A stretch of DNA of 40,281 nt from a virus, in IMG/VR virus record IMGVR_UViG_3300042888_001688, positions 1 to 40,281 of that record; one strand, given 5' to 3'. The notes below the pieces were generated by a model. It saw only the letters and a program-made list of their open reading frames with translations, searched no databases and was not told where the DNA came from. Numbering within the stretch: the first letter of the stretch is position 1; each line of letters begins with the position of its first letter. Positions 20,958 through 24,266 of the stretch are shown in pieces. A program made the position numbers and the translations under genes.

Positions 20958-21331
20958 GGGGATGCTTTGGAATTGATTGCAATGAGAATTGTAGTATCAC
21001 ACGTAGAGGTAAGTGCTAGAAACTCTTTAAAACTGCACAAAACAATAACTGACGAAATGTCAACTATGACCTTTGATTCCTTAATGGATTTCATCGGTGC
21101 CGATTACGCTGTAGCAGCATAATTACTCCCGTACACATCATGGGACAATTAAATAGAATGTGAAATCGTTTTCTTTGTTATTTCAAAACAAAGTGGTGGA
21201 CCGTTGTACTAACCATACAGCCTCAATTCTTTTGAAAAGTTAGTAAGATTAAAACTTTATTCTAAACGTGTGACATGCTGGTATTATGATTACTTTGTAA
21301 GACAAGGGTTCGACTCCCTTCATCTCCACCA
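20958..21331 (+). ncRNA. ssrA: tmRNA (transfer-messenger RNA)
   Basis: The 5' end GGGGATG (20958-20964) pairs with CATCTCC (21321-21327), and an encoded ACCA follows. The T-arm AAGGG-TTCGACT-CCCTT and the preceding GACATGCTGGTATTATG stretch resemble bacterial tmRNA 3' ends. The 5' segment GGAATTGATTGC mirrors the usual tRNA-like D region. The tag frame ends GCC GAT TAC GCT GTA GCA GCA TAA, giving ...ADYAVAA, very like the canonical ...NYALAA degradation tag. The stop is at 21120-21122. The frame is open further upstream (DEMSTMTFDS...), so the tag may be about 20 aa; I cannot fix the resume codon. tmRNA rescues stalled ribosomes with SmpB. Confidence 0.92.
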
Positions 21332-21335
21332 ATAT

Positions 21336-21408
21336 CGCGATGTAGTAGCAGAGGTAGCTCGCTAGGCTCATAACCTAGAGGTCGGAAGTTCGAATCTTCC
21401 CATCGCAA
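21336..21408 (+). tRNA. tRNA-Met (CAT), initiator type
   Basis: The acceptor CGCGATG/CATCGCA has a C1-A72 mismatch, the hallmark of bacterial initiator tRNA. The anticodon arm CTAGG-CTCATAA-CCTAG and the GGTAGCTCG D-region resemble E. coli fMet; only two G-C pairs abut the loop instead of three. The T-arm GGAAG-TTCGAAT-CTTCC is perfect. A second, elongator-like tRNA-Met lies at 24746. Confidence 0.85.
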
Positions 21409-21412
21409 CAAA

Positions 21413-21490
21413 TGTTAGGGTTGAAGCCATCAACTAATAAAACCGATTGAGTGAGGTGTTCGACACCGAAGAAAGCCGGATATCCTAACA
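21413..21490 (+). ncRNA. Unclassified structured RNA element A
   Basis: A 78-nt segment closed by TGTTAGG (21413-21419) and CCTAACA (21484-21490). Internal hairpins are GTTGA-AGCCA-TCAAC and GGTG-TTCGA-CACC. It resembles a tRNA in closing stem and a TTCGA loop, but has no anticodon arm, and 15 nt separate the TTCGA hairpin from the 3' strand. It follows the initiator tRNA by 4 nt and is likely co-transcribed. Confidence 0.5.
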
Positions 21491-21510: not shown

Positions 21511-21542
21511 TTTGGTAGATTGAAAAACATATCGTATCTTTA
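21511..21542 (+). promoter_or_regulatory. Promoter before structured element B
   Basis: TTTGG at 21511-21515 and TATCTTTA at 21535-21542, 20-nt spacer. It is one of the closest matches to the window consensus. Transcription would start at about 21548, exactly where element B begins. Confidence 0.72.
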
Positions 21543-21547
21543 ATTTA

Positions 21548-21595
21548 TAAGATTGGAACTTATAGGTGATGAAAGATACTCGGTATTCAATCTTA
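21548..21595 (+). ncRNA. Unclassified short structured RNA element B
   Basis: TAAGATTG (21548-21555) pairs with CAATCTTA (21588-21595) over 8 bp. The 32-nt interior contains a small ATAC/GTAT hairpin. It sits directly at the predicted transcription start of the promoter at 21511. It could be a leader structure or a stand-alone small RNA. Confidence 0.35.
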
Positions 21596-21615: not shown

Positions 21616-21647
21616 TTTGGTACTTTGAAAAAATTATCGTATATTTA
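21616..21647 (+). promoter_or_regulatory. Promoter of the long non-coding RNA
   Basis: TTTGG at 21616-21620 and TATATTTA at 21640-21647, 20-nt spacer. A start near 21653 would give a transcript of about 1.2 kb ending at the terminator at 22816-22853. Confidence 0.72.
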
Positions 21648-22576
21648 TAAAACAATAGGGTAACACCTAAAAAGTTCTTTACATTATTGAAAATATTTCA
21701 CATAGTAAGTTTATCTTACATAGTGAATAACGGCCGCATATGGTCGGTAAATAAACTTGGAAACAAGGATAAAGTGGGTGTATTAAGTGATACATCTGCG
21801 GTTACTTTCCCCGTAAGGAGAGACTAACTCAAGTATGCAAGTGGGATATTATTTAGGCTTTGTACGAAAGGGTAACACTATATCGGAACAGTCAGAATAA
21901 TTGGGGTATTATAGATACTCTAATTGAGGTGGGAACACCAATAAGAATAACCCATAGAATATCAGTAAGAAATGTAGACTTAATCCCTCTACATCATTGC
22001 GGTATTCATTATCAGAGTGGTCTTAACATCAAACCATCCGAAAGGACGTAAGATAAGACTGTGTACAGGTGGTGCTGTTACTATCCTTTGAACTAGTTTA
22101 CCAAAACTACTCAATGAAGATGACTCAAAATAACGCAGTAGGGATATTGCATCGGGTAGTTTAGTATTCTCTCGACCAAAAGTTGGGGGAGCTAGTGGTA
22201 AACCACTACCTGAATAATTCTATAAACTAAAACTCAATTTTTACTTCGGTGTAAAAACTACAATTTAAAAATTAAGCTTAAGTGTTTACCAGTTGCAGGT
22301 GAAAGGTGTGTACATAGTTAAGAGCTGTTCTTAGCCACGATACTTCCGCAAGAAGTCTGTGATTCTATCGAAAGGTTTCTAATTCCGCAAGAATTAATTA
22401 GGCTGCGAGGCTTGAAGAAAATGATTAAGTAGAGAGTAATCGGCAACTTAAAGACTGATAGTCTTAAATCATCCACATTGAATTGGTACTACTCAAAAGG
22501 TAGTGGAAACGGAAGGAACTAATAATCTTTCTAAAGCTGGTTCACAATATGGAGTATTCTCATCCCTATTTTATTT

Positions 22577-22616
22577 TATCATAATGGTTAATGTTGGTTC
22601 GATTCCAATAATGATA
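22577..22616 (+). other. Acceptor/T-arm-like minihelix within the long RNA
   Basis: TATCAT (22577-22582) pairs with ATGATA (22611-22616). Just inside is a perfect tRNA T-arm: GTTGG-TTCGATT-CCAAT (22593-22609). The D and anticodon arms are replaced by about ten nucleotides. It looks like a tRNA top-half mimic embedded in the transcript, or the 3' remnant of a tRNA. Confidence 0.45.
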
Positions 22617-22679
22617 GCAGAGTAATTCATCGAGGCTAGTATTAACCGGAGCATGACTTGACGTGGCGTATTTTGAAGA

Positions 22680-22709
22680 TTGATTACTTTTTTAATTCGA
22701 TTATATTTA
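22680..22709 (+). promoter_or_regulatory. Possible internal promoter near the 3' end of the long RNA
   Basis: TTG at 22680-22682, 19 nt, TATATTTA at 22702-22709. An ATG follows after 6 nt (22716), the same spacing as the predicted leaderless genes. The -33 part is minimal. Confidence 0.35.
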
Positions 22710-22715
22710 TAACAA

Positions 22716-22784
22716 ATGAAAGCATTGACATTACATACACTTTGTAGCACACCGAATCAGATTTGGGGTAGCAGAGATATGTAA
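22716..22784 (+). CDS. Possible leaderless 22-aa microprotein
   Basis: An ATG lies 6 nt after a TATATTTA element. The frame runs 22 codons (starts MKALTLHTLC, ends IWGSRDM) to TAA. It lies between the long RNA's core and its terminator. No homology recognised; it may be chance. Confidence 0.25.
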   Translation: MKALTLHTLCSTPNQIWGSRDM

Positions 22785-22815
22785 AGTTAGGCTAGATTTA
22801 TATTAAGAATTTTAG

Positions 22816-22853
22816 AAAACCCTGACTTTAATTAGTTGGGGTTTTTTGTTTTT
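22816..22853 (+). terminator. Intrinsic terminator of the long RNA
   Basis: A 12-bp stem (22816-22827 with 22834-22845, core AAAACCC/GGGTTTT with two G-U pairs) caps the loop TTAATT and runs into TTTTTTGTTTTT. The 6-nt TTAATT loop is identical to that of the terminator at 457. Confidence 0.85.
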
Positions 22854-24088: not shown

Positions 24089-24161
24089 GCCTGGATAGCT
24101 CAGTTGGTAGAGCAACTCATTTGTAATGAGTAGGTCGTCAGTTCGAATCTGACTCTGGGCT
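24089..24161 (+). tRNA. tRNA-Thr (TGT)
   Basis: Acceptor GCCTGGA/TCTGGGC with two G-U pairs. D-arm GCTC/GAGC. Anticodon arm ACTCA-TTTGTAA-TGAGT. T-arm GTCAG-TTCGAAT-CTGAC. Confidence 0.93.
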
Positions 24162-24163
24162 CA

Positions 24164-24263
24164 AAGATGAGAGTAGATGAAAGTGAGCATCCGTAATACC
24201 GGTTCACTCGAGATGCAGCTAGTAAATACATTGATTAATTAGACGTAGTTAATCTCTCATCTT
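24164..24263 (+). ncRNA. Unclassified structured RNA element D with pseudoknot
   Basis: A 100-nt segment closed by ten base pairs: AAGATGAGAG (24164-24173) and CTCTCATCTT (24254-24263). Inside, GTGA (24183-24186) can pair with TCAC and the adjacent GCATC with GATGC in the interleaved order of an H-type pseudoknot. A separate hairpin is GATTAA...TTAATC. It is not a tRNA. A 21-codon frame (24177-24242) overlaps it. Confidence 0.55.
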
Positions 24264-24266
24264 ATT

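Follow-up and report, generated by a model that had tools for sequence, protein, structure and literature searches.

The window, that is, the whole stretch of DNA analyzed here, is a 40,281-base linear IMG/VR record that carries phage replication genes for UvsX, a DnaB-like helicase, ribonucleotide reductase, DNA polymerase, and a clamp loader. An earlier note on this DNA had placed a large noncoding RNA within a phage tRNA cluster, a location that is confirmed by a tmRNA gene and 19 tRNA genes, 18 of which follow the RNA and one of which precedes it. Judged only by the type of its promoter and boxA, the phage probably infects Bacteroidota. The nearest relative of its DNA polymerase is that of Microcystis phage Mel-JY01 (50%), a phage that gave no match to the window RNA in a blastn search of the GenBank phage collection; the single match returned there was a weak one, to an uncultured megaphage. 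Farther downstream, between tRNA-Thr and tRNA-Asp, the fold of positions 24161–24266, which has a long closing stem, is stronger than that of shuffled sequences (z −2.98). The RNA features, promoter-like sites, conserved elements, and 22-codon ORF described below all lie on the plus strand.

The cluster opens with a phage tmRNA gene (20958–21331; called by ARAGORN and matched by Rfam RF00023 at 97.8 bits), for which a long tag peptide, DEMSTMTFDSLMDFIGADYAVAA, is predicted. A C1 × A72 mismatch is a mark of initiator tRNA, and the tRNA-Met gene that comes next (21336–21409; ARAGORN, sequence classification) carries it. Beyond it lies E1 (21413–21490), a small conserved structured RNA motif of the form GAAGCC..TAATAAAACCGA..AAAGCCGGA that is not part of GOLLD and recurs in at least 120 IMG/VR stretches. 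E1 folds with a z of −2.66. Its inner helix occurs in 13 types and, at the best of three offsets, forms all four pairs in each of the 62 instances that were parsed; in 11 E1 loci put through Rfam, no family reached its gathering score at the motif. In 69 of the 95 instances found elsewhere, an ATG with a probable ribosome-binding site occurs no more than 150 nt from this motif of some 75 nt, and most of the 40 following starts listed belong to a UvsX/RecA-like recombinase, as judged from protein sequence. In those settings E1 looks like a cis-regulatory leader.

The large RNA itself occupies 21653–22566; the promoter was used to place its 5′ end, and the Rfam model together with the alignment to place its 3′ end. 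A cmscan search against Rfam matched RF02032, the GOLLD 3′ domain, at 22152–22566 on the plus strand with 283.4 bits (E 4e-80) over model positions 1–416 of 416, the curated cut-off being 150 bits. Up to an E of 5, nothing from the ROOL, OLE, HEARO, or intron families was listed for the window, so that among the families that the earlier note had listed for comparison only GOLLD was matched. The note had guessed at a relative of GOLLD or ROOL or at a new class, and the first of these guesses is borne out: the window RNA is GOLLD itself.

Relatives were collected from IMG/VR with a 3′-domain pattern, the neighboring ATPase gene, and a 3′-end pattern. The first yielded 17 stretches, of which all 16 that were scanned with Rfam reach the GOLLD cut-off, while GOLLD was found by nhmmer in the 17th, L018; the second yielded 23 loci, and the third at least 120 stretches, some of them already in the set. 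The cut-off was likewise reached in 50 of 50 records, both the 16 loci and the 50 records having been chosen beforehand for GOLLD sequence, and of 155 sequences put through a profile search 151 contain GOLLD; this last set was largely GOLLD-selected and counts the window as well as its own copy. Dropping identical cores and cores that do not span the model ends leaves 86 unique GOLLDs, which fall into 29 groups at 85% identity; the records compared are related to each other. When members that exceed 95% identity are removed, along with those that have no boxA-like word 400–600 nt upstream, 54 non-redundant full-length members remain, which measure 823–961 nt counted from that word, and 44 of these form the alignment used below (A2; 10 left out). 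A blastn search with the region of one relative, L210, matched two uncultured megaphages over at least a third of the query among the best 20 of 71 records, the other matches among these being short and located at the tRNA.

Fold and cage contacts

A consensus fold of the 44 aligned phage GOLLDs, computed with RNAalifold, contains 190 predicted pairs, 133 of which show at least one compensatory double change. Homologues without covarying stems, which the earlier note had named as grounds for abandoning its proposal, are thus not what we find. In the 3′ domain, 66 of 89 pairs carry a double change and 96.9% of cells are paired across the 44 sequences; in the 5′ domain (21690–22151), 67 of 96 predicted pairs carry a compensatory change, with 97.8% of cells paired. 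On this comparison the 5′ half of the RNA (about 21690–22151), which lies beyond the Rfam match, is conserved as well, and a structured 5′ region is joined to a total length above 800 nt, the window RNA being about 0.9 kb. The claim that the region holds no credible gene is sustained too: the sole listed ORF of at least 60 codons is a 63-codon TTG ORF at 21860–22051, which falls within the structured 5′ domain. When partners were slid by 1–3 columns, 37–48% of cells were paired and 18–35 double changes appeared, and when partners were shuffled, 79% and 76% were paired. These controls are supportive and do not amount to a formal test, because a structure taken from the alignment on which they are run is favored in any case.

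The top covarying column pairs outside the helices include scattered single pairs that resemble shared ancestry, and from that list we used only runs of neighboring pairs or pairs that match published contacts. One such run links the two domains: a hairpin loop of the 5′ domain (21911–21915) pairs with the start of the 3′-domain linker (22219–22223) through five base pairs in 44 of 44 sequences, with covariation between GC and AU versions. The alignment then enters a variable linker (22224–22272).

These observations gain meaning beside the GOLLD of env-38, which builds a hollow 14-mer cage whose linker is disordered and faces the interior, and for which an L20 contact, a pseudoknot, L27 contacts, and a GC-to-CG switch in L21a are described in the parts of the report covered here (PMC12286853). 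We assigned the helix names L20, L21a, L22, and L27 from the text of that report, so that agreement with the published contacts is one of kind. The duplicated hairpin that the earlier note had pointed out is indeed present, with TTCCGCAAGAA at 22344–22354 and again at 22383–22393, and we take the pair as L20 and L21a. The loop of the first (22348–22349) pairs with 22276–22277 by two base pairs in 44 of 44 sequences, in CG, GC, and AU versions, the identity of the partner with the J13/15 of the report being putative. The second has a self-complementary GC center in a symmetric loop, and among relatives both CCGCAAG-type and GUCGAA-type loops occur, with a switch from GC to CG. A pseudoknot between L22 and the linker has five pairs in 44 of 44 sequences, and three pairs of the L27 type are likewise formed in 44 of 44, two of the three being invariant. 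The window RNA keeps loop contacts of the kinds that hold the solved 14-mer together, and would be expected to fold into the same 14-mer cage. The early suggestion that this might be a particle RNA fits the cage published for another GOLLD, as far as the covered parts of that report go (PMC12286853).

Linkage to initiator tRNA and tmRNA genes

GOLLD genes tend to adjoin initiator tRNA and tmRNA genes. Among the 76 GOLLDs with at least 1000 nt upstream and at least 100 nt downstream, 51 have an adjacent CAT tRNA (50 called by ARAGORN, one found by a text pattern), and all 51 are mismatched at 1:72; this number is a lower bound, because several negative loci hold an odd-shaped CAT tRNA missed by ARAGORN. 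Counted by sequence cluster, an initiator-type tRNA adjoins GOLLD in 17 of 27, lying upstream in 14 and 13–20 nt downstream in three. Once duplicates are merged, 45 adjacent CAT tRNAs are mismatched and one is paired at 1:72, as against two mismatched and 13 paired among the non-adjacent CAT tRNAs of the same loci. A second rule, which slides the acceptor ends, gives 45 to 1 for the adjacent and 11 to 4 for the non-adjacent tRNAs (Fisher p 0.011); we keep the first count, because in 9 of these 11 the second rule had shifted the start by two bases and position 1:72 is paired by eye. In eight representatives of clusters with several tRNAs, the initiator neighbors GOLLD in five, where 0.73 would be expected; the remaining three have no initiator by the rule, and two of them, L034 and L048, hold upstream CAT tRNAs missed by ARAGORN. 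A tmRNA scores above the Rfam cut-off in 29 of the 50 GOLLD records searched, and in 27 it lies within 5 kb of GOLLD, with distances taken by hand, 16 of these upstream on the same strand and 11 convergent downstream; the two further tmRNAs are 16.8 and 59 kb away.

How much this closeness means can be debated. GOLLD may well form a cage and yet owe its neighbors to an RNA island co-inherited among related phages, with no function shared between its parts, and we regard this account as a serious contender that stops somewhat short of probable. It is favored by the kinship of many of the loci, by the 10 of 27 GOLLD clusters in which the classifier finds no adjacent initiator tRNA, and by three relatives (L212, L229, and L232) in which the initiator tRNA persists without GOLLD. 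These three come from a marker-gene sample of 30 loci that extend 3 kb or more beyond the marker, among which a strict dependence of the initiator tRNA on GOLLD was not found: both occur in 16, GOLLD is accompanied by a degenerate initiator in three and by no clear one in four (among them L205, with a weak tRNA there), three have neither, and L165 is ambiguous. Passive inheritance fits less well with the two opposite arrangements in which the initiator tRNA occurs, upstream or 13–20 nt downstream, with the two arrangements of the tmRNA, and with the 27 of 76 eligible loci in which the adjacent tRNA is the only one that ARAGORN finds. It also leaves the specificity for tRNA type to be accounted for, 45 of 46 unique adjacent CAT tRNAs being initiator-like as against 2 of 15 non-adjacent ones (11 of 15 with the second classifier). 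We prefer a functional tie between GOLLD and translation.

In the covered parts of the cage report, GOLLD is said to lie often near tRNA islands, tRNAs can sit in its linker, the env-38 GOLLD is downstream of a Met-tRNA, and ribosomes bound GOLLD in pull-downs (PMC12286853). We did not find the boxA-like head of GOLLD, its initiator-tRNA neighbor, or its linkage to tmRNA in print. No publication among the matches listed joins GOLLD with initiator tRNA, a scope outside which Weinberg 2009 and 2017 fall, or with boxA, antitermination, or NusB; none was found that links GOLLD with a phage tmRNA, Weinberg 2009 again being outside the scope and the tmRNA of PMC6582537, in the parts covered, being that of the host. 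The covered parts of the env-38 report (PMC12286853) mention no boxA-like leader, E2, or tmRNA linkage and, apart from the Met-tRNA ahead of env-38, no linkage to initiator tRNA.

Leader elements and transcript limits

The promoter that the earlier note had placed at 21616–21647, just ahead of GOLLD, holds up well. It has a near copy at 21511–21542, ahead of the element E2, and the pattern that the two share occurs in none of 100 shuffles. The 32-nt form (TTTG, then TAtaTTTa) is close to TTG-N17-21-TAnnTTTG, a site of the Bacteroidota type that we find upstream of 16S genes in eight of nine Bacteroidota replicons, the host comparison covering these nine out of a longer list and one Bacillota replicon. 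By eye in the alignment, a promoter-like site directly ahead of GOLLD is kept by many relatives; some show just the upstream copy, with E2 after it.

At the head of the transcript stands a boxA-like word, GTTCTTTAC (21674–21682). Among the 79 GOLLDs with at least 800 nt upstream, 76 have a word of the form RTTCTTTR[AC] 350–700 nt before the 3′ domain, related sequences being counted separately; in 350-nt background windows taken from these loci the rate is 4.7% (181 of 3866). The word is absent from L002 and from two mycobacterial loci (L042 and L043). The commonest forms are GTTCTTTGAA and GTTCTTTAA, from which the window word differs by one base, and within the window GTTCTTTRM is not rare, with 4 matches where 2.1 are expected. 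The gamma-proteobacterial consensus for boxA is GYTCTTTAANA, as given in the covered parts of a study whose authors did not consider noncoding RNAs (PMC5725501), and the window copy matches this gamma-proteobacterial form imperfectly because it has C at position 9. What we observe is an untranslated transcript with the boxA consensus close to its 5′ end, imperfect in the window copy. The word also stands 122–223 nt before the 16S match in six of the nine Bacteroidota replicons; its exact form is absent from the rRNA leaders of the other three, Flammeovirga, Flavobacterium, and Chryseobacterium, and of the Bacillota replicon. In E. coli, the boxA of rrn operons is necessary and sufficient to recruit antitermination factors, according to the covered parts of the report (PMC10250234), and by analogy the boxA of GOLLD would load the host NusB/S10 antitermination complex.

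A different use of the word is conceivable, in which GTTCTTT is a structural part of GOLLD that pairs with an invariant AAAG (about 22533–22536) and is no site for Nus factors. RNAalifold does pair these bases, with four of the five pairs invariant in 44 of 44 sequences, so that conservation of the word could be structural; the four invariant pairs, on the other hand, have no covariation behind them and prove nothing. The word also turns up where GOLLD pairing plays no part: it heads an unrelated structured RNA in nine of 10 sequences (see below), it stands in the six host rRNA leaders, and up to 16 of 46 initiator tRNAs in these loci have a GTTCTT[TA][AG] form no more than 60 nt ahead of them (19 hits, at least three of which are the end of tmRNA), compared with 14 of 440 other tRNAs. 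We consider a purely structural role unlikely, and favor a leader signal that Nus factors would read.

Between the two promoter-like sites lies E2 (21549–21594), a hairpin element with the core TAGGNNATGAAAGATACTCG that we recognize by conservation, its fold z being only −1.22. The core occurs in at least 120 stretches. In 31 of 53 unique contexts (counting loci that the E2 scan was the first to bring in and that extend 1.1 kb or more beyond the element), a GOLLD 3′ domain starts 462–803 nt downstream on the same strand, and GTTCTTT follows E2 within 75 nt in 21 of 74 cases compared with 198 of 12,374 background windows. Often found before boxA and stable-RNA genes, E2 may be an antitermination element of the nut or put kind.

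At several E2 loci the element heads a different RNA of about 0.55 kb, which ends in a terminator-like hairpin. Ten loci carry this E2-led RNA of about 560 nt (L247, L271, L304, L308, L340, L342, L451, L452, L453, and L455), and their ten unique sequences, three of which are 97–99% identical, give 108 predicted pairs with 22 double changes, as compared with 3–7 when partners are slid. By eye, nine of the 10 carry GTTCTTT at the head, and eight or fewer have the strict E2 core. Five of the loci were scanned against Rfam without any family matching this RNA up to an E of 1, and we put it forward as a candidate new large phage RNA.

Downstream of GOLLD the picture departs from the earlier note, which had drawn a single RNA of 1.2 kb running from promoter to terminator. 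The GOLLD fold and the Rfam model both end at 22566, so that the end given before, 22853, is off by about 290 nt. The terminator itself is there as claimed, an intrinsic-terminator-like hairpin with a T-run at 22813–22848, three terminator-like sites having been found where shuffles give a mean of 0.4; it comes after a small ORF and not directly after GOLLD. That ORF, a candidate of 22 codons with the product MKALTLHTLCSTPNQIWGSRDM (22716–22784), is conserved in six of the seven loci compared, the window being among them, and sits between GOLLD and a tRNA-Asn gene. A promoter-like site at 22680–22707 is of a kind no commoner than chance (8 compared with 6.0 in shuffles).

Two further elements stand closer to GOLLD. 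A tRNA-like minihelix, composed of an acceptor and a T-arm-like loop (22577–22616), follows GOLLD directly and is kept in several relatives; other relatives carry a fuller tRNA-like sequence at this position. The minihelix is recognized by conservation in sequence and alignment (fold z only −0.87), with no call from ARAGORN or Rfam, and could direct processing of the GOLLD 3′ end by RNase P. E3 (22621–22693), which ends in TTTTTT and is conserved in 30 stretches, is a possible GOLLD terminator; all nine loci newly found by an E3 scan have GOLLD within 3 kb, whereas its fold z of +0.64 and its absence from the terminator-like sites found speak against termination. Because neither element folds better than shuffles, the roles proposed for both lean on conservation only. 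In L210, by eye, a terminator-like hairpin lies about 13–15 nt after GOLLD, and the same hairpin follows the initiator tRNA in the GOLLD-less sisters L212, L229, and L232.

Given the downstream elements and the L210 hairpin, the 1.2 kb stretch is probably made up of at least two units. That one RNA should run to the hairpin at 22813–22848 is suggested by the promoter-like and terminator-like sites that bracket the region, but we judge it quite improbable, with the GOLLD fold stopping well short, E3 with its T-run, the promoter-like site, and the conserved 22-codon ORF intervening, and L210 having its hairpin so soon after the fold. We favor a GOLLD transcript that would end near 22566. Least of all could the locus encode an unrelated new class of large RNA, the alternative that the earlier note had kept in view, or a group I/II intron, the match by which it had proposed to overturn itself: nothing speaks for either except that the 5′ half lies outside the Rfam match, no intron, ROOL, OLE, or HEARO family appears at E up to 5, and the full-length RF02032 match rules both out, leaving them a vanishingly small chance.

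A working model and known systems

Taken as a whole, we find it probable, with some reserve, that the window encodes the GOLLD cage RNA of a probable Bacteroidota phage, transcribed in the manner of rRNA and tied to translation, with a function that we infer. A host-type promoter and the boxA-like word would start the transcript. The boxA would then load the host NusB/S10 complex, allowing an untranslated RNA of about 0.9 kb to be made at a high rate and without Rho termination, much as rRNA is. GOLLD would fold into cap and ring domains and assemble like its solved relative, and the cage, late in infection, would act on, store, or protect initiator tRNA or stalled or free ribosomal subunits. 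This last action on translation components is the weakest step of the explanation. While comparison supports the fold and the leader word, our confidence falls from assembly through antitermination to function.

A more ambitious proposal would have Bacteroidota phages run an rRNA-mimic program, in which E2 and boxA, as a nut- or put-like pair, drive both GOLLD and the RNA of about 0.55 kb, and in which GOLLD cages, with the phage initiator tRNA and tmRNA, take over translation initiation and ribosome rescue. We offer it as a speculation that is rather unlikely in its entirety.

With the cage structure solved (PMC12286853, in the parts covered), the leader word and the linkage to initiator tRNA and tmRNA become testable leads on function; they address how a phage can mass-produce a long RNA that is not translated, and what machinery of the cell this RNA may serve. 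The 54 full-length phage GOLLDs further supply what appears, from covariation, to be a conserved 5′ domain beyond the Rfam match.

Among known systems, the leaders of rRNA operons with boxA share with GOLLD a host-type promoter-like site, a GTTCTTTR that heads a long untranslated RNA, and tRNA neighbors; they differ in that GOLLD contains no rRNA and its binding of Nus factors is putative. The mycobacterial GOLLD, like that of the window, lies inside a phage-derived tRNA cluster, as described in the covered parts of the report (PMC6582537), while the mycobacterial loci in our set, L042 and L043, have neither the boxA-like word nor an adjacent initiator tRNA. ROOL is likewise a large phage RNA found near tRNAs, and forms an 8-mer cage according to the covered parts of the cage report (PMC12286853); the window differs in having no ROOL match in Rfam at E up to 5. 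The closest parallel is GOLLD as defined by RF02032 and, within the parts covered, by the env-38 cage (PMC12286853). Unlike the RF02032 match, the window GOLLD includes a 5′ domain outside the matched part; with known GOLLD it has in common the full 3′ domain, a length of about 0.9 kb, a phage origin beside tRNAs, and the order of domains, a 5′ domain followed by a 3′ domain with its variable linker.
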